Assembly: GCA_030595925.1 (NCBI GenBank)
Contig: JAUVLC010000040.1
Location: 1-20,598, forward strand
Length of the DNA: 20,598 nt
Direction: 5' to 3'
Source of the DNA: Clostridia bacterium
Lineage (GTDB): Bacteria; CBDUZB01; JAGLHV01
Shown in pieces: positions 9,788 to 20,598 of this stretch. Within the stretch, counting starts at the first letter, position 1. Each line of letters starts with the position of its first letter. Position numbers and translations under genes: made by a program. The notes under the pieces were generated by a model. It was not told where the DNA came from. It searched no databases and saw only the letters and a list, made by a program, of their open reading frames with translations.

Positions 9788-10315
9788 ATGAAATATCACA
9801 AATCTATTCGATTAAAGAATTACGATTATAAAACTAATGGTTATTATTTTATTACTATATGTACAGATTATCATAATCCTTACTTAAAATATGGTAAAAT
9901 TTATCAAATCGTAGTGGCAGAGCTTGCTCTGCTATCCAAAAGATTTCAGGGAATAAAAATTGATTATTATACTTTAATGCCAAATCATATTCATATGATT
10001 TTAATTCTTGAAAATTCAAAATACCGTTTAGATCAGGTTATTCAGGCATTTAAATCCATTACAACATTGAAATCAAAGCAAGCTTTGAAACTACAAATAA
10101 AAAGACGCTTATGGCAACCAAACTATTATGAACATATTATAAGAGACCAAAAAGCACTTTATGAAATACGAAAATATATTCAGGAAAATCCGGAAAAAGA
10201 CAAGATAGATTTTAAATCGTTAACAATCACGTATATCAAACTATGTCATAACCTTGATTTTAATGATTTTATTTATCATTGCCATTGTCATTGTAGTGGC
10301 AAAGTTTCCGCCTAA
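9788..10315 (+). CDS. REP-associated tyrosine transposase (RAYT, HUH/Y1)
   Basis: 175 aa. YYFITICT (19-26), the HUH metal motif in MPNHIHMIL (H67, H69) and a Y1 candidate in NYYEHIIRD (Y113 or Y114), followed by IRKYIQENPEK, identify a RAYT of the IS200-like superfamily. RAYTs cleave single-stranded palindromic REP DNA, and known members read a GTAG/GTGG tetranucleotide next to the hairpin. Such palindromes lie inside the gene (9911-9937, in frame as residues 42-50) and across its stop (10293-10346). The gene sits alone between batD and batE on the operon strand, with AAGGA before the ATG and no IS-like ends, as is usual for single-copy RAYTs. The last dozen residues (CHCHCSGKVSA) are encoded by repeat-like DNA, so the native C-terminus may differ. 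Confidence 0.88.
   Translation: MKYHKSIRLKNYDYKTNGYYFITICTDYHNPYLKYGKIYQIVVAELALLSKRFQGIKIDYYTLMPNHIHMILILENSKYRLDQVIQAFKSITTLKSKQALKLQIKRRLWQPNYYEHIIRDQKALYEIRKYIQENPEKDKIDFKSLTITYIKLCHNLDFNDFIYHCHCHCSGKVSA
9911..9937 (+). repeat. GTAG-headed palindrome inside the RAYT gene
   Basis: GTAG (9911-9914), then GCAGAGC TT GCTCTGC (9917-9932), a 7-bp perfect inverted repeat. It is in frame as residues 42-50 (VVAELALLS), in a region where RAYTs vary. The opening GTAGTGGCA matches the palindrome at 10293. Confidence 0.7.
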
Positions 10316-15213: not shown

Positions 15214-15792
15214 TTGAAACAATTAGAAGTTATTAGAGTATTGGAAAAAGCTAAAAAGTCTCTTTTCAGTTTAGCAGACTTGAAAAAACTGCTTTACTTA
15301 AAAGATAAAACTGTTTATATCCAACTAAACAGGTTAACTAAATCCGGTCTGCTGATAAGAATGAAAAGGGATGTTTACTGTTTAGGATCGAGGAAAATAG
15401 ATAATTTTGAAATTGCAAATTTTTTGTATAAACCTTCTTATATTTCTTTAGAATCGGCATTAGCTTATTACGGCATTCTTCTCCAGGTTCCACAAACAAT
15501 TATTTCTGTTACCCCGCGACGAACAAAACGTTTTATAATTGATGGTAAAGAATTTATTTACTTACATCTGGATCAAAGATATTATTTTGGGTATGAACAA
15601 AATGATAAATTTCTTGTTGCCGATAAGGAAAAAGCGATTATAGATACTATTTTTTTTGCATCTTTTGGGAGGATTTTGATTAATCCTGAGGAGTGGATTT
15701 TTAAAGATGTTTCTCATGTCCGTTTAAAGCAACTGGCCTCAAAGATAAAAAGTCCTATTTTTCATAATTTATTAAGAAAGATAACAAAATGA
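15214..15792 (+). CDS. abiEi: AbiEi-type antitoxin (type IV toxin-antitoxin)
   Basis: 192 aa from a TTG at 15214, with AGAGGG (15201-15206) at good spacing; no in-frame ATG fits. A winged-helix N-terminus (1-60; FSLADLKKLL, VYIQLNRLTKSGLLIRMKRD) precedes the AbiEi C-terminal domain (about 72-185), with SYISLESALAYYGIL and LVADKEKAIIDTIF. The winged helix would bind its own promoter and the C-terminal domain neutralises the nucleotidyltransferase toxin. The stop overlaps the toxin start by 4 bp (ATGA), which implies coupled translation. In AbiE systems the pair can stop phage growth or stabilise mobile DNA. The specific activity here is inferred. It is near the right-hand defence cluster. Confidence 0.88.
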   Translation: MKQLEVIRVLEKAKKSLFSLADLKKLLYLKDKTVYIQLNRLTKSGLLIRMKRDVYCLGSRKIDNFEIANFLYKPSYISLESALAYYGILLQVPQTIISVTPRRTKRFIIDGKEFIYLHLDQRYYFGYEQNDKFLVADKEKAIIDTIFFASFGRILINPEEWIFKDVSHVRLKQLASKIKSPIFHNLLRKITK

Positions 15793-16556
15793 TTACGACG
15801 GAACAGATTCAAAATTTGAGCCGGAAATTTAACATCGATAAATTTTCAGTAATAAGAGAATATTTACAGATAGTTTTTCTTTCCAACCTTTATGCCCGGA
15901 GGGAAAGTGATAAGATATTTTTTAAGGGTGGGACGGCTCTAAGACTTTTGTTCCATTCTTTTAGATTTTCTGAAGATTTGGATTTTACTTCTCTTCTTTC
16001 CGGCAAAAAATTACTTAATATTTTAGAAAAAACTATCAAAGATACTAATTTGACAATTCCTAATGTAACATTAAAAAAAACACAAATTAACAAGGTCGGT
16101 TTAACAGGGTTTTTAAGTTTTAAGGCAGAAAACTTAAAATTTCCTTTAAATGTTCATTTGGATTTTTCTTCCCGGGAAAAACCTTTAACCAGCAAGGAAA
16201 CTATTTTAGAAACCCTTTTTCCTGTTGGACCATATCCTGTTATTCGTCATTTAGAAATAGAAGAGATTCTTGCTGAGAAAATAAGAGCATTAATGACTCG
16301 AGCAAAAGGAAGGGATTTTTTTGATATATGGTTTTTGCTAACAAAACAAGTCCGGATTAATTGGGAAATGGTTAATAAAAAGATGCTTTATTACAAAAAG
16401 AAGATATCATCGGATGATTTAGTCAGAAAGATAAAAGCAATTGATTCTAAAAAGATGTCACAGGATTTGGGTAAATTCTTACCTTTACAACAAAGGAAGA
16501 TTGTTTACAAATTAAAAGAATTACTTATGGAAAAAATTAATAATTTGCCTCAGTAG
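15789..16556 (+). CDS. abiEii: AbiEii-type nucleotidyltransferase toxin
   Basis: 255 aa. Motif I is KGGTALR...SEDLDF (46-66), giving the GG(S/T)xL(R) and DxD-type metal site of DUF1814/AbiEii nucleotidyltransferases. HLDFS (123-127) is a further acidic strand. EEILAEKIRAL (158-168) and RAKGRDFFDIWFLL (171-184) are motifs III and IV of the family. Such toxins transfer nucleotides from NTPs to RNA targets (tRNA in the MenT relatives). The target here is unknown. All catalytic motifs appear intact. The ATG overlaps the antitoxin stop. No terminator is seen after it, and a repeat with ATAGGGGAC follows at 16592. Confidence 0.9.
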   Translation: MITTEQIQNLSRKFNIDKFSVIREYLQIVFLSNLYARRESDKIFFKGGTALRLLFHSFRFSEDLDFTSLLSGKKLLNILEKTIKDTNLTIPNVTLKKTQINKVGLTGFLSFKAENLKFPLNVHLDFSSREKPLTSKETILETLFPVGPYPVIRHLEIEEILAEKIRALMTRAKGRDFFDIWFLLTKQVRINWEMVNKKMLYYKKKISSDDLVRKIKAIDSKKMSQDLGKFLPLQQRKIVYKLKELLMEKINNLPQ

Positions 16557-16859
16557 GAGAAAACAGGGAGATAGAAAAAATATAGGCGAACATAGGGGAC
16601 AGATACTTCAATAAATTAAAACTTTAAGCAATGTTTTTCAAAACAGTCCATTTTAATAACACCTTTGTCAATTTATGCAGTCACTGTATAACTATTAAAT
16701 ATCATGTGTTTTGTCATTGGGCAAGAGAAAAAATAAAAAAGTTGACACTAAACCCTTTTGTTTTTTATAATAATGCAGTGTGGTTTTCTGAAAATAGAGT
16801 AACCAGATAATATATAATATTATGTGAAAACTGAAAATAAATTTAAATGGAATTAAATC
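16557..16859. other. Intergenic spacer with possible transposon-end remnant
   Basis: 303 bp. ATAGGGGACAGATACTTCAA (16592-16611) resembles the leader of the transposase at 19860-19900 (ATAGGGGACGTTGCGTACTA), suggesting a remnant of a related element. The rest is AT-rich, with the promoter noted at 16742. No ORF is convincing. Confidence 0.5.
16742..16771 (+). promoter_or_regulatory. Sigma-70 promoter for the deaminase-HATPase gene
   Basis: TTGACA (16742-16747), 18-bp spacer and TATAAT (16766-16771): both boxes are perfect. It lies 88 bp before the ATG at 16860, indicating that this gene is transcribed on its own rather than from abiE. Confidence 0.8.
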
Positions 16860-18359
16860 ATGACAGATAACAAACGAAAAACCCCAAAAATATACATGAG
16901 AATGGCGGTAGACGTCATGAAGAAGTCTATTTCTGAAGGGAAGAAGGATAAACCAAGTCCGCATGTAGGAGTTGTATTAGTATTTCCAGATGGTAGGGTA
17001 GATACTGCCTATCGCGGGGAACTCAGGGCAGGAGATCATGCAGAATATACTGTTCTGGACAAAAAGAATCGACATCGCGAATTGTCTGGATGTTGGTTGT
17101 TTGCAACACTTGAACCGTGTGCTCCTGGAGCACGAAACGCACCGAAAGTGAGTTGTGCAGAACGAATTGTAAATGCTCGCATTGCAGAAGTATGGTTTGG
17201 GATAGAGGATAAAAACCCAAAAGTGGACAATGGAGGGATTGCATACTTGTTAGACAACGCTGTTAAGGTTCACCAGTTTGATCCTGAATTTCACAAAGAA
17301 ATTGAAGATGTCAACAAAAGATTCAACACTTGGGCTGAAATGAAAAACACCGAAGCTAAAGCCAAAAAGTCGAAGCCCAAAAATTATCTTAATGAAAAAG
17401 TTATGGTTACCAATATGAATAGTCTTTCAAAAGAGGCTCTTCAAAAATTTCTGACAAAGTCAGGCAGAAGATGGAAACCAAATTCAGACATAGTTCTTCA
17501 GGAATTGAAGGAGATGGAGTTGTTGGAATATAATGAAAAAACAAATAAATATTTACCTACAGGGAATGCAATTCTTCTTTTTGGTGAAAACCCGAGATAT
17601 AAATTTCCTCAAGCAGCAGTGAAAGCCAAAGTGGATTTTGGTAATGGTAAATTTGGGGCTGAAACCTTTGACGATCCATTGACGCTTATTCCAGATAAAG
17701 TGGAGGATTGGATCAAAAAAGTGTTACCAGAAAGCTTTGATCGTTCAAAGTTTAAGGCTGAAAAGATTCCGGCTTTCCCAATGGAAGTAATCAGGGAAGC
17801 TCTGATAAATGCAATTGTTCACCGTGACTATGCTAAAGATGGGGCAAAAGTTCAGCTGGAAATTAAGCCGGATCGAATTATAATCAAAAGTCCTGGTGGA
17901 CCAGTCCCGCCTGTTACGATAGAGTCAATGAATAATTTCACGGCTACTTCATGGAGTCGCAATAAGAAACTTACATTCATTTTCAATGAGATGGGATATA
18001 TGGAAGAATCTGAAATTGGAATGGACACTTTTAGATCACTAAGAGATAAACATCATTTTCCACTTCCTATCATTAATTATGATGGAAGTAATGTTATTGT
18101 GATATTCCCAAGGACAGCTGATGCTGTTAAAAAAGTAAGCGGTAAGGAGGCAATTGATAAACTGAATGAAGCAGAACTGGTAGGTTATGATTTTGTAAGA
18201 TCAAGAAAAGAGGTTTCTAAAAAGGAATATGCTAATCATTTTGATCTTAGTGATAAAGTTGCACAGAATCAACTCAGGAAGATGCGAGATTTAGATTTGA
18301 TTGGAGATAATGGAGAGCCGCTTAAGTCGAATAAATATAAATATGTGGATAAAGAATAG
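16860..18359 (+). CDS. Fusion of RibD-like deaminase domain and HATPase_c_4 (AlbA_2/RecG-type) module
   Basis: 499 aa. Residues 10-145 form a CMP/RibD-like deaminase fold: HAE (H60, E62) and TLEPC...C (C87, C99), the expected zinc ligands and proton shuttle. Residues 145-175 are a charged linker. Residues 185-400 match the ATP-binding C-terminal part of AlbA_2/Schlafen-like 'RecG-type' regulators: LPTGNAILLFGENPRYKFPQ (232-251), the N box EALINAIVHRDY (313-324) and SPGGPVPP (344-351). A helix-turn-helix-like tail (435-485) ends the protein. Usually the N-terminus is an AlbA_2 domain; here a deaminase replaces it. ATP binding might control deamination of a nucleotide or base, which is inference only. 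A weak Shine-Dalgarno precedes the ATG. It has its own consensus promoter and sits between abiE and an RM remnant. Confidence 0.82.
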   Translation: MTDNKRKTPKIYMRMAVDVMKKSISEGKKDKPSPHVGVVLVFPDGRVDTAYRGELRAGDHAEYTVLDKKNRHRELSGCWLFATLEPCAPGARNAPKVSCAERIVNARIAEVWFGIEDKNPKVDNGGIAYLLDNAVKVHQFDPEFHKEIEDVNKRFNTWAEMKNTEAKAKKSKPKNYLNEKVMVTNMNSLSKEALQKFLTKSGRRWKPNSDIVLQELKEMELLEYNEKTNKYLPTGNAILLFGENPRYKFPQAAVKAKVDFGNGKFGAETFDDPLTLIPDKVEDWIKKVLPESFDRSKFKAEKIPAFPMEVIREALINAIVHRDYAKDGAKVQLEIKPDRIIIKSPGGPVPPVTIESMNNFTATSWSRNKKLTFIFNEMGYMEESEIGMDTFRSLRDKHHFPLPIINYDGSNVIVIFPRTADAVKKVSGKEAIDKLNEAELVGYDFVRSRKEVSKKEYANHFDLSDKVAQNQLRKMRDLDLIGDNGEPLKSNKYKYVDKE

Positions 18360-18360
18360 A

Positions 18361-18484
18361 ATCGCATGGAAAGATGCATGGAAAATGATTCCATGCGATG
18401 ATATAATTACTGTAATGGATGCAACGCATAGAAAACTGCATAGAAAACGATTCCATGCTAAAAATCAAAATTAGAGTAATAGTG
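18361..18484. repeat. 62-bp imperfect tandem repeat with GCATGGAA boxes
   Basis: Unit 1 has GCATGGAA at 18364 and 18376 and TTCCATGC at 18389. Its outer arms ATCGCATGGAA and TTCCATGCGAT (18361-18371, 18389-18399) are a perfect 11-bp inverted repeat. Unit 2 repeats the pattern exactly 62 bp on (GCATAGAA at 18426 and 18438, TTCCATGC at 18451). It starts 2 bp after the fusion gene's stop. Confidence 0.75.
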
Positions 18485-18551: not shown

Positions 18552-18685
18552 GCAAAATATGTGCCTTTTTGGGCTTAATTTTATTTGATTGTTATTTGTT
18601 CCGATAGAGTAATAGCAAGCAAAATATGTTGATAATGAAAGGAATTCTTATTTGACTGTTATTTGACTGGAGCATTTTTTATGAG
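18552..18685. repeat. 67-bp imperfect direct repeat
   Basis: GCAAAATATGT (18552 and 18619) and TTATTTGAYTGTTATTTG (18581 and 18648) recur in the same order 67 bp apart; the sequence between is diverged. There is no ORF beyond about 16 codons in 18360-18841. Confidence 0.55.
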
Positions 18686-18841: not shown

Positions 18842-19852
18842 ATGGAATTAACAAAAGAAAAAGCGAAAGAAAATCTATCGAAATTAATAAAAAAGTTTGA
18901 AAAAGAAATGTCTCTTGGTTTAATTCAGGAATACAATGAAGAAGCCACCAAGATTTCATTTATACAACCGCTTTTAAAGGATGTATTAGGCTGGAATGTG
19001 AATGACCGTAACGAGGTAAGCCCGGAAGAAAAAGTTTCGCGGGGGAGGGTTGATTATGGTCTAAAAATTAACGGGAAGACTAAAATTTTTATTGAGGCAA
19101 AGCCGGTAAAAGCAGATCTCAATAAACATGTTGAACAGGCGGTTAGATATGGTTATAACCGAAAAGATGTGCATTTTGTTATTCTTACTGATTTTGAAGG
19201 AATAAAAATATTTGATGTAACAGTCAAGCCGGATACAAGGAACTTTCTTAAAGGGTTAAAAATTGATTTGCCGTGGAATGAATATCTACAAAAATTTGAT
19301 AAATTATGGATGCTTTCAAGGGAATCAGTAAGTCAGGGTCAACTTGATAAATTACTTCTCATAAAACCGAAAGAACGATTGCCGGTTGATAAAGCTATTC
19401 TTGATGACCTCCAGAAATGGCGGGAAGCTTTAGCTAAGGATATTTTTAAAAACAATTCCGAGATTTTTCATTCCGAAGAGCCGGAAAAAGATGCTAATTA
19501 TCTCAAAGAAATAACCCAGAAGATTCTTGACCGCATAATTTTTATGCGTTCCTGTGAAGACCGCGGTTTAATTCACAGGCGTCATTTAAAAGAACTCTTT
19601 GAAGAAAGAACCGAGGGTGTAGGAACGAGCACAATGGTATTTCTTAGAGAGGAATTTAAATATTATAATATCATCTTTGACAGTGACATATTTAGTCCCC
19701 GGGAATGGGAAGATGATTTAGCCATTGATTTTAAGGTTATGAAAAATATCATCTTAGATACCTATAATCCGTATCAATTTGATGTTATTCCTTTAGAGGT
19801 TTTGGGAAATATTTATGAACAGTATTTAGGTTATACTATAAAGGGAAAATAG
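18842..19852 (+). pseudogene. N-terminal part of an Eco57I-like restriction-modification protein (truncated)
   Basis: 336 aa. The N-terminus has a PD-(D/E)xK-type nuclease fold: E33/E34 in a helix, D71 in RVDYGL, and E85-A-K87 in IFIEAKP, then QAVRYGYN. A long helical linker (180-330) follows, with DRIIFMRSCEDRGL and PREWEDD, ending FDVIPLEVLGNIYEQYLGYT. In the type IIG/Eco57I-like family, that last motif is directly followed by a helix and the KAGGVYYTP start of the N6-adenine methylase domain. Here the frame stops four residues later, beside a GGGAAAATAG duplication and a transposase leader. The methylase and target-recognition parts are absent from the window, so the gene is most likely disrupted. 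AAGGA (18828-18832) supports the ATG. The remaining nuclease half may be inactive or toxic; I cannot tell. Confidence 0.78.
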
Positions 19853-19881
19853 AGGGAAAATAGGGGACGTTGCGTACTAAC

Positions 19882-19910
19882 TTGATTAATTGTAAAAATG
19901 TTGTTATAAT
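19882..19910 (+). promoter_or_regulatory. Promoter for the Y1 transposase, probably leaderless
   Basis: TTGATT (19882-19887), 17-bp spacer and TATAAT (19905-19910). The ATG is at 19917, six bases after the -10 box, so transcription should start at or next to the start codon. No Shine-Dalgarno precedes the ATG. Confidence 0.65.
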
Positions 19911-19916
19911 TAAACC

Positions 19917-20598
19917 ATGCCAAGACAAGCAAGAATAGAAATATCAGAATTATTGTATCATGTAATAGTAAGGGGAATAGAACGAAGTGAAATTTTTCCC
20001 TGGAAAGAAGACCGGGAAGATTTTATAAATCGTTTAGAAAAAAATCTGGAAGGAAGCGGTGCAAAATGTTTTGCCTGGGCAGTGATGACAAACCATGCAC
20101 ATTTACTGATAAGGACAGGAGAGAAAAAGTTAAGCAGAATAATGAGAGGATTATTATCGGGATATGCAACAAATTTCAATATAAAACACAAAAGGAGCGG
20201 ACATTTGTTTCAAAACAGGTATAAAGCAATAATATGTGAAGAAGAGGAATATTTATTTGAATTGATCAGGTATATACACCTTAATCCGGTTAGAGCAAAA
20301 ATAGTGAGGAATATGGAAGAGCTTGATAATTACGAATGGACGGGACATTCAGTAATAATGGGAAAGAGAGAAAAAGAATGGCAGGAAGTGAAAGAATTAC
20401 TGGAAAGATTTGGTTGCAAAATGAGACAAGCAAGAGAAAAGTATAGGAGATTTGTAGAAGAGGGATTAGGATTAGGGAGACAGAGTAAATTTAACGGTGG
20501 AGGGGGATTAATAAGGAGTGCCGGTGGATTAATGGAAGTTTTGAGAAACAGGAAAGACGGAATAAAAGAGCGGTCGGATGAAAGAGTGTTGGGTAGCG
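19917..20598 (+). CDS. HUH/Y1 transposase (Transposase_17 / REP-associated type), 3' truncated by window end
   Basis: 227 residues are open to the last base with no stop. MPRQARIEI at the start, TNHAHLLI (HUH: H60, H62), GHLFQNRYKAI (Y102, the likely nucleophile) and YIHLNPVRAKIV place it in the IS200/RAYT-like superfamily, in a different subgroup from the transposase at 9788. A C-terminal extension (170-227; FVEEGLGLGR and a Gly-rich GGGG) is seen in this subgroup, where I recall it as a DNA-binding helix domain. The promoter is close to the start codon. It lies directly after the truncated restriction gene, and it or its element probably cut that gene. Upstream ATAGGGGAC (19860) is a plausible element end. 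The right end is not in the window. Confidence 0.88.
   Translation, partial: MPRQARIEISELLYHVIVRGIERSEIFPWKEDREDFINRLEKNLEGSGAKCFAWAVMTNHAHLLIRTGEKKLSRIMRGLLSGYATNFNIKHKRSGHLFQNRYKAIICEEEEYLFELIRYIHLNPVRAKIVRNMEELDNYEWTGHSVIMGKREKEWQEVKELLERFGCKMRQAREKYRRFVEEGLGLGRQSKFNGGGGLIRSAGGLMEVLRNRKDGIKERSDERVLGS

Follow-up and report, generated by a model that had tools for sequence, protein, structure and literature searches.

The locus described here raises the question of what a protein that carries a zinc deaminase domain and an ATPase domain in one chain does among defence genes, and what would keep such a protein in check. The gene lies in a window of 20,598 bp (the whole stretch of DNA analysed, contig JAUVLC010000040.1 of a Clostridia bacterium) and encodes 499 residues (Table 1). 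From the sequence alone, the initial annotation had described a deaminase in place of AlbA_2 in front of a HATPase_c_4 module and suggested an antiviral, nucleotide-altering effector with an ATP-gated switch; the C-terminal winged helix (wHTH) and the two repeat arrays behind the gene were not mentioned.

The domain assignment is borne out by profile and structural comparisons. In the 499-residue protein, the Pfam families dCMP_cyt_deam_1 (6.2e-11, residues 10-114) and HATPase_c_4 (PF13749; 4.9e-15, residues 328-416) match over their curated cut-offs, and AlbA_2 (PF04326) has no Pfam match. The motifs H60-A-E62, P86-C87 and C99, with 11 residues between the two cysteines, are followed by LLFG (239-242), the N box E313-ALINAIVHRD-Y324 and SPGG (344-347), at the places first given for them. 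In an AlphaFold2 model built on 65 sequences (mean pLDDT 88), the N-terminal 150 residues do fold as a deaminase, with residues 7-164 matching RibG (4g3m_B) at a Z score of 20.5 and an rmsd of 2.1 Å over 144 residues. Residues 160-499 match DIP2311 (3lmm_A; Z 22.1, rmsd 9.5 Å over several domains), which also matches the HATPase part by sequence, and the modelled wHTH consists of three helices (437-449, 454-461 and 465-477) and two strands. On these sequence and model comparisons, the protein has the known Schlafen - minimal histidine-kinase-type ATPase - wHTH frame, with a predicted intact zinc deaminase of RibD fold where the AlbA_2/Schlafen RNase would stand.

Table 1. Features of the locus in the window, with the evidence for each
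Feature	Position	Strand	Evidence
AbiEi-type antitoxin gene, defence neighbour	15214..15792	+	PADLOC AbiEi 1.6e-33
AbiEii toxin gene, defence neighbour	15789..16556	+	Pfam AbiEii 1.1e-30
Discrete transferred unit: gene, ~40 bp before, ~110 bp after	16821..18473	+	91% DNA identity, Candidatus Scalindua rubra
Deaminase - HATPase_c_4 - wHTH gene, 499 aa	16860..18359	+	open frame, Pfam, 65 homologues, AlphaFold2 model
RibD-fold zinc deaminase domain, residues 7-164	16878..17351	+	Pfam, invariant residues, structure match
Deaminase site codons: H60/E62; P86-C87; C99	17037-17045; 17115-17120; 17154-17156	+	
Middle domain, residues 185-300, common to DIP2311-type proteins	17412..17759	+	3lmm match, PADLOC match
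HATPase_c_4 region, residues 301-428 (N box E313-Y324 at 17796-17831)	17760..18143	+	Pfam, invariant residues
C-terminal winged helix, residues 430-499	18147..18356	+	model; identity tracks half-site sequence
Array unit 1: W1 CGCATGGAA 18363-18371; W2 TGCATGGAA 18375-18383; inverted W' 18389-18397	18363..18397	.	
Array unit 2: W1 GCATAGAAA 18426-18434; W2 18438-18446; inverted W' 18450-18458	18426..18458	.	
N-terminal third of type IIG restriction-modification protein	18842..19852	+	PADLOC REase_MTase_IIG 2.7e-51, positions 5-338/1011

Among 84,980 species genomes, a search with a GDHAEF-type deaminase pattern yielded 219 relatives confirmed for the deaminase stretch, and the full architecture of about 500 residues is encoded at most of the best 80 of these 219 loci, which were the loci read (ranked by a 53-residue stretch, a choice that favours less divergent architectures). 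By record name, the carriers among these best 80 belong to the Bacteroidota, Planctomycetota, Proteobacteria, Omnitrophota, Elusimicrobia, Armatimonadetes and others, and the matching architecture is found in three more genomes of 386 sampled (G131, at 66% identity; G185, in two copies; and G003). The deaminase residues H60, E62, P86, C87 and C99 are invariant in all 65 aligned homologues, as are E313, N317, H321, R322, Y324, G346, R367, N368, E382 and G387 of the ATPase part; the gap between the cysteines is 11 residues in 56 of the 65, nine in eight and ten in one. Between the window copy and the copy in Scalindua, dN/dS is 0.14 for the deaminase and 0.19 for the HATPase. These alignments show the residues of both the deaminase and the ATPase to be conserved, with the signature of purifying selection on both.

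Several variants accompany the family. Two viral contigs (L029 4282-5316 and L046 5911-6828) encode the same deaminase clade without HATPase or wHTH, in architectures that differ (a helical N-terminus; a different C-terminus), and a short form (L058 80-802) joins the deaminase straight to the wHTH without the middle domain and HATPase. Frame-broken copies in metagenome genomes (L067, L070, L087, L089, L118 and L124) reflect decay or assembly error. Plasmid and phage records gave no full-length match, nor did a viral search with the full-length query; a phage or plasmid gene was rejected, as only the deaminase clade occurs in the two viral contigs, in other architectures.

A RibD or other metabolic enzyme was likewise rejected, on clade, cut-off, context and the coexistence of true RibD. 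The family shares with RibD/RibG its fold and its zinc and catalytic residues (HAE and two Cys), but lacks the reductase domain, forms its own clade, has a longer Cys-Cys loop and lies outside rib operons. In the tree, the family and the two viral-contig variants are separate from RibD and TadA (support 100/99), and in 372 genomes the family profile scores members at 206 bits or more and every other match at 99 bits or less. The window protein reaches 46 bits against the RibD equivalog cut-off of 156 and contains no C-terminal reductase domain by Pfam, whilst a separate true RibD is present over cut-off in 24 of the 29 carriers tested; the window's own genome has a RibD-sized gene directly upstream of a riboflavin-synthase-like gene. 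In a phmmer alignment, the Cys-Cys loop is three residues longer than in Bacillus subtilis RibG, consistent with the long gap remarked on earlier, and the near-invariant R92 and K96 flank and extend the site of the single RibD lysine, which in RibD binds the substrate phosphate. Because of the longer loop and the presence of R92 and K96 around the lysine site, the substrate is probably nucleotide-like rather than a riboflavin precursor.

In the window, the gene has AbiEi and AbiEii genes upstream and a type IIG restriction-modification (R-M) remnant downstream, as the initial annotation had recognised. Only about a third of the usual length of the type IIG frame is present, and the frame stops 65 bp short of a gene for a REP-associated tyrosine transposase (window 18842-20597). 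The neighbours of the homologues, a survey of which had been proposed, form defence operons and not metabolic ones. At a threshold of 1e-15, the family's nearest neighbours matched 319 PADLOC families against 27 for genes of the control regions, which were of similar gene number and came from the ordinary chromosome of carrier genomes rather than from other accessory genes; these counts are a rough index, as PADLOC families are redundant. Pfam domains of the neighbours include ResIII, HSDR_N, Piwi, AlbA_2, reverse transcriptase, AIPR, HerA, RhuM and GmrSD, together with those of a few housekeeping genes.

The order of genes is often that of an R-M operon, with names at some loci assigned by sequence likeness in a gene-by-gene reading. 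The order hsdS-gene-hsdR is found at L095 (with a SIR2 gene between), L100, L109 and L116, where the gene overlaps hsdS by 4 bp; related orders are hsdM-hsdS-SIR2-HerA-gene-hsdR (L107), hsdS-OLD-gene-hsdR (L092), mod-res-AIPR-gene (L053 and L054) and mod-res-caspase-gene (L052). The window copy lies beside an R-M remnant only and not inside an R-M operon, and some loci have no recognised defence neighbour (G131, with V-type ATPase genes; L086, with ribosomal and uppS-type genes). Read in this way, the gene orders show the gene to be carried as cargo within R-M operons and at further defence loci.

This cargo appears to be mobile. DNA identity of 91% to Candidatus Scalindua rubra is confined to the unit of gene and short flanks listed in Table 1, and the copy in Candidatus Tharpella has 88% DNA identity, whereas LeuS of the window's genome and that of Scalindua share 56% protein identity; the window's phylum is likely to differ from that of Scalindua. 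The high DNA identity of the gene set against the divergence of LeuS argues for movement between phyla: a discrete 1.65-kb unit, with the ~110 bp behind the gene as part of it, was probably transferred recently. An integron cassette also combines a gene with a 3' inverted repeat, but was rejected, as inspection of 18357-18473 gave no GTTRRRY core and the triple-repeat form differs.

The transferred sequence behind the gene contains the repeat arrays. Each unit has the form W-N3-W-loop-W', in which three 9-bp half-sites follow one another at a 12-bp pitch with the third inverted, and usually two arrays per locus lie directly 3' of the stop codon. Within 300 bp downstream, a unit is found in 57 of 70 loci by a 9-mer test (3 of 210 shuffles; the other 13 loci have no unit at the threshold used) and in 55 of 70 by an 8-mer test (1 of 210 shuffles). 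Upstream of the gene, 1 of 65 loci has such units, and none were found inside genes in the same locus scan. The 12-bp pitch is kept by 94 of the 110 units, and the spacing between successive units is mostly 61-63 bp, close to six turns of the helix. On the loop side the core resembles GACA, with its G present in 85 of the 86 units, and the bases further out differ among loci, giving distinct half-site types such as GCATGGAAA and ATCCCGCCA. By pattern search, a paired half-site with one mismatch or fewer occurs at two places only in the window's genome, namely the two arrays. In several R-M operons, hsdR follows the gene with the array in between. The sole locus with upstream units, L101, carries the TCCCGACA type twice, 147 bp and 86 bp ahead of the gene, and none downstream. 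The short form at L058 keeps arrays of the ATCTCGCCA type, like members with a similar wHTH, and the array is absent on inspection from L029 and L046, the deaminase variants without wHTH.

The array sequence changes in step with the wHTH and not with the deaminase, as comparison among the loci shows. Half-site similarity correlates with wHTH identity when deaminase identity is held constant (partial rank correlation 0.50, permutation p 0.0005), compared with 0.06 for deaminase identity given the wHTH. When scanned along the protein, the correlation with half-site similarity stays uniformly low until about residue 400 and is highest at residues 460-499 (0.61; partial 0.57). With near relatives collapsed to 21 loci, a peak remains at 455-499 (0.42, p 0.0005), accompanied in this set by weaker signals in other segments. 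Among the strongest residue-base links, wing residues 483-491 are linked to half-site positions 1-4, and recognition-helix residues 466-467 to positions 3, 5, 7 and 8; for a winged helix on DNA, this would be a plausible geometry. The array adjoins the wHTH codons, and linkage or joint recombination may inflate the co-variation; joint exchange of array and wHTH codons would itself hold a matched pair together.

Taken together, the locus is rather likely to be a single-gene defence effector that moves horizontally and is under the control of a cognate array in cis. In this explanation, the wHTH would bind its own array, the only such sites found in the window's genome, and binding would keep the protein inactive or limit its amount until an infection trigger frees or reassembles it. 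The trigger is perhaps inhibition of the neighbouring R-M system, by analogy with PrrC, or perhaps a change of the nucleotide pool sensed by the ATPase. The ATP-switched deaminase would then deaminate a nucleotide-like substrate and halt growth, so that the effector would form a second line behind restriction. With respect to the antiviral effector first suggested, the effector swap on the HATPase_c_4 frame and the antiviral setting are supported, and the ATP-gated switch stands as a step of this proposed mechanism.

A different action of the array, as RNA, has been weighed: 3' untranslated repeats or an antisense transcript would form hairpins that inhibit the protein, in the manner of a type III antitoxin. 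The position of the repeats directly after the stop codon fits this, as does the folding of the array RNA, which in each of eight loci tested is more stable than that of shuffled sequences (z -3.3 to -6.6), but stable folding is expected of any inverted repeat, the array has no Rfam match, and the part of the protein that co-varies is a winged helix, typically a DNA binder. Transition mismatches between the arms comprise 51 A.C against 24 G.U-compatible pairs, counted over related loci that are not independent; this excess is the opposite of selection for sense pairing and bears on sense RNA, less on an antisense transcript. A sense RNA hairpin as the selected feature is thus disfavoured and action of the array as DNA is favoured on sequence grounds, which leaves the RNA reading as a whole improbable. 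Another account accepts binding of the array but assigns it to transcriptional autoregulation, with control of the gene itself or the next gene and a deaminase that is metabolic or ligand-sensing and unrelated to defence. COG2865-type proteins are commonly named transcriptional regulators, and both the location of arrays ahead of hsdR and the restriction of sites to two in the window's genome would suit a dedicated regulator; this account is nevertheless unlikely, given the invariance of all deaminase catalytic residues, the coexistence of true RibD, a context of defence rather than metabolism, and arrays that lie 3' of the gene and not at its promoter.

An effector that depends for its function on pAgo or another neighbouring system is very unlikely. 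A pAgo gene does lie downstream on the same strand at six of the loci read, and the PADLOC model Aga_SIR2-PNTD1-PNTD2 (PDLC02402) aligns at profile positions 272-491 with residues 134-356, but no Piwi domain was found in the window's genome, that pAgo is absent from 22 of 30 carriers, neighbours vary by locus and related pAgos have other genes in the corresponding slot. On these grounds an obligate pAgo partner was rejected, and the pAgo neighbourhood is best read, from gene content, as a common hotspot. In this Bacteroidota hotspot (L052, L053, L054, L057, L064 and L075; L147-L149), the slot upstream of pAgo is occupied by the deaminase gene, a Fic-like pair or RhuM, depending on the contig. 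A DNA-tethered base editor, in which the wHTH brings the deaminase to DNA, for instance the adjacent wHTH codons and array or invading DNA, is similarly remote from expectation. A deaminase and a DNA reader do share one chain, several comparisons show the wHTH as the domain with the least conservation, and half-sites vary among loci; however, the nearest fold is that of the small-molecule enzyme RibD, and 3' direct repeats are also found behind the genes of related AlbA_2- and DUF4062-type proteins that have no deaminase, so that such repeats need no editing.

The single-gene effector with its cognate array can be compared with several known systems. The Schlafen - HATPase_c_4 - wHTH proteins (COG2865; DIP2311) have the same middle domain, a HATPase_c_4 with intact N box and a wHTH, likewise lie in defence islands and in some cases have direct repeats around the stop codon; the window family differs in its N-terminal zinc deaminase in place of AlbA_2 and in the triple W-W-W' array, usually present twice, at its 3' end. 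RADAR and Cad1 couple a deaminase defence effector to nucleotide binding with adenosine-deaminase-type barrel enzymes, whereas the window family has a cytidine-deaminase/RibD fold on a GHKL-type frame. PrrC and RloC, guards embedded in or linked to R-M systems, combine an ATP-binding domain and an effector in one chain and, like the family at L095, L100, L109, L116 and others, lie inside type I R-M operons; their effector is an anticodon nuclease in contrast to the deaminase here, and a guarding role of the family is putative. For that location, PrrC is a precedent as an R-M-embedded guard (PMC12707154), and the Schlafen-RNase version of the frame is described as a widespread anti-phage backup effector in BREX and related systems (PMC12839542). 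In type III toxin-antitoxin systems of the ToxIN kind, tandem RNA repeats inhibit the protein; here the repeats are 3' of the gene. The pAgo-associated SIR2 protein (PDLC02402) has a SIR2 effector, whilst the window family has no obligate pAgo, and its alignment suggests another N-terminal effector on a similar frame; this swap is taken from the name of the PADLOC model and the alignment, and a search of 372 genomes for PDLC02402 found one match, a partial one.

These comparisons raise the possibility, put forward tentatively, of a class of self-contained modules in which an ATP-switched effector is joined to a wHTH and a specificity-matched 3' triple-half-site array, with swappable N-terminal effectors (deaminase, Schlafen RNase, DUF4062 and perhaps SIR2) and the array as cis off-switch or infection sensor. 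A wHTH-paired array could explain how HATPase_c_4 proteins, a large and little-understood class, stay silent and what releases them. The present family adds a deaminase to a frame known mainly with an RNase, and does so across many phyla. No description of the architecture with its 3' array was found in the open-access full-text literature, and precedent elsewhere is possible, with Iyer et al. 2011 the likeliest one for deaminase fusions. The gene thus represents an apparently undescribed, widespread bacterial family, and the 3' array an apparently unreported cis component.

Among AlbA_2- and DUF4062-type relatives, direct repeats of at least four copies were found downstream in 10 of 32 and upstream in 2 of 32, counts to be read with shuffles reaching four copies fairly often, and a 3' repeat array may, tentatively, be a feature of the whole HATPase_c_4 frame. 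Short direct repeats around or after the stop codon were seen at L008-L012, L014, L022, L213 and L221, AlbA_2-/DUF4062-type HATPase_c_4 genes from unrelated genomes, in which the repeats are about 11-12 bp apart or multiples of this. Elsewhere in the window, a MoxR/Bat-type operon contains a second Y1_Tnp (IS200-like) transposase gene (9788-10315), flanked by its BatD-like and Tpr/SH3-like genes. At window positions 18565-18675, the direct repeats TTATTTGAYTG and a stretch of sequence, TTTTTGGGCTTAATTTTATTTGATTGTTATTTG, resemble the 3' end and repeats of the HATPase_c_4 gene at L221, and are perhaps the remnant of a second gene of this kind.
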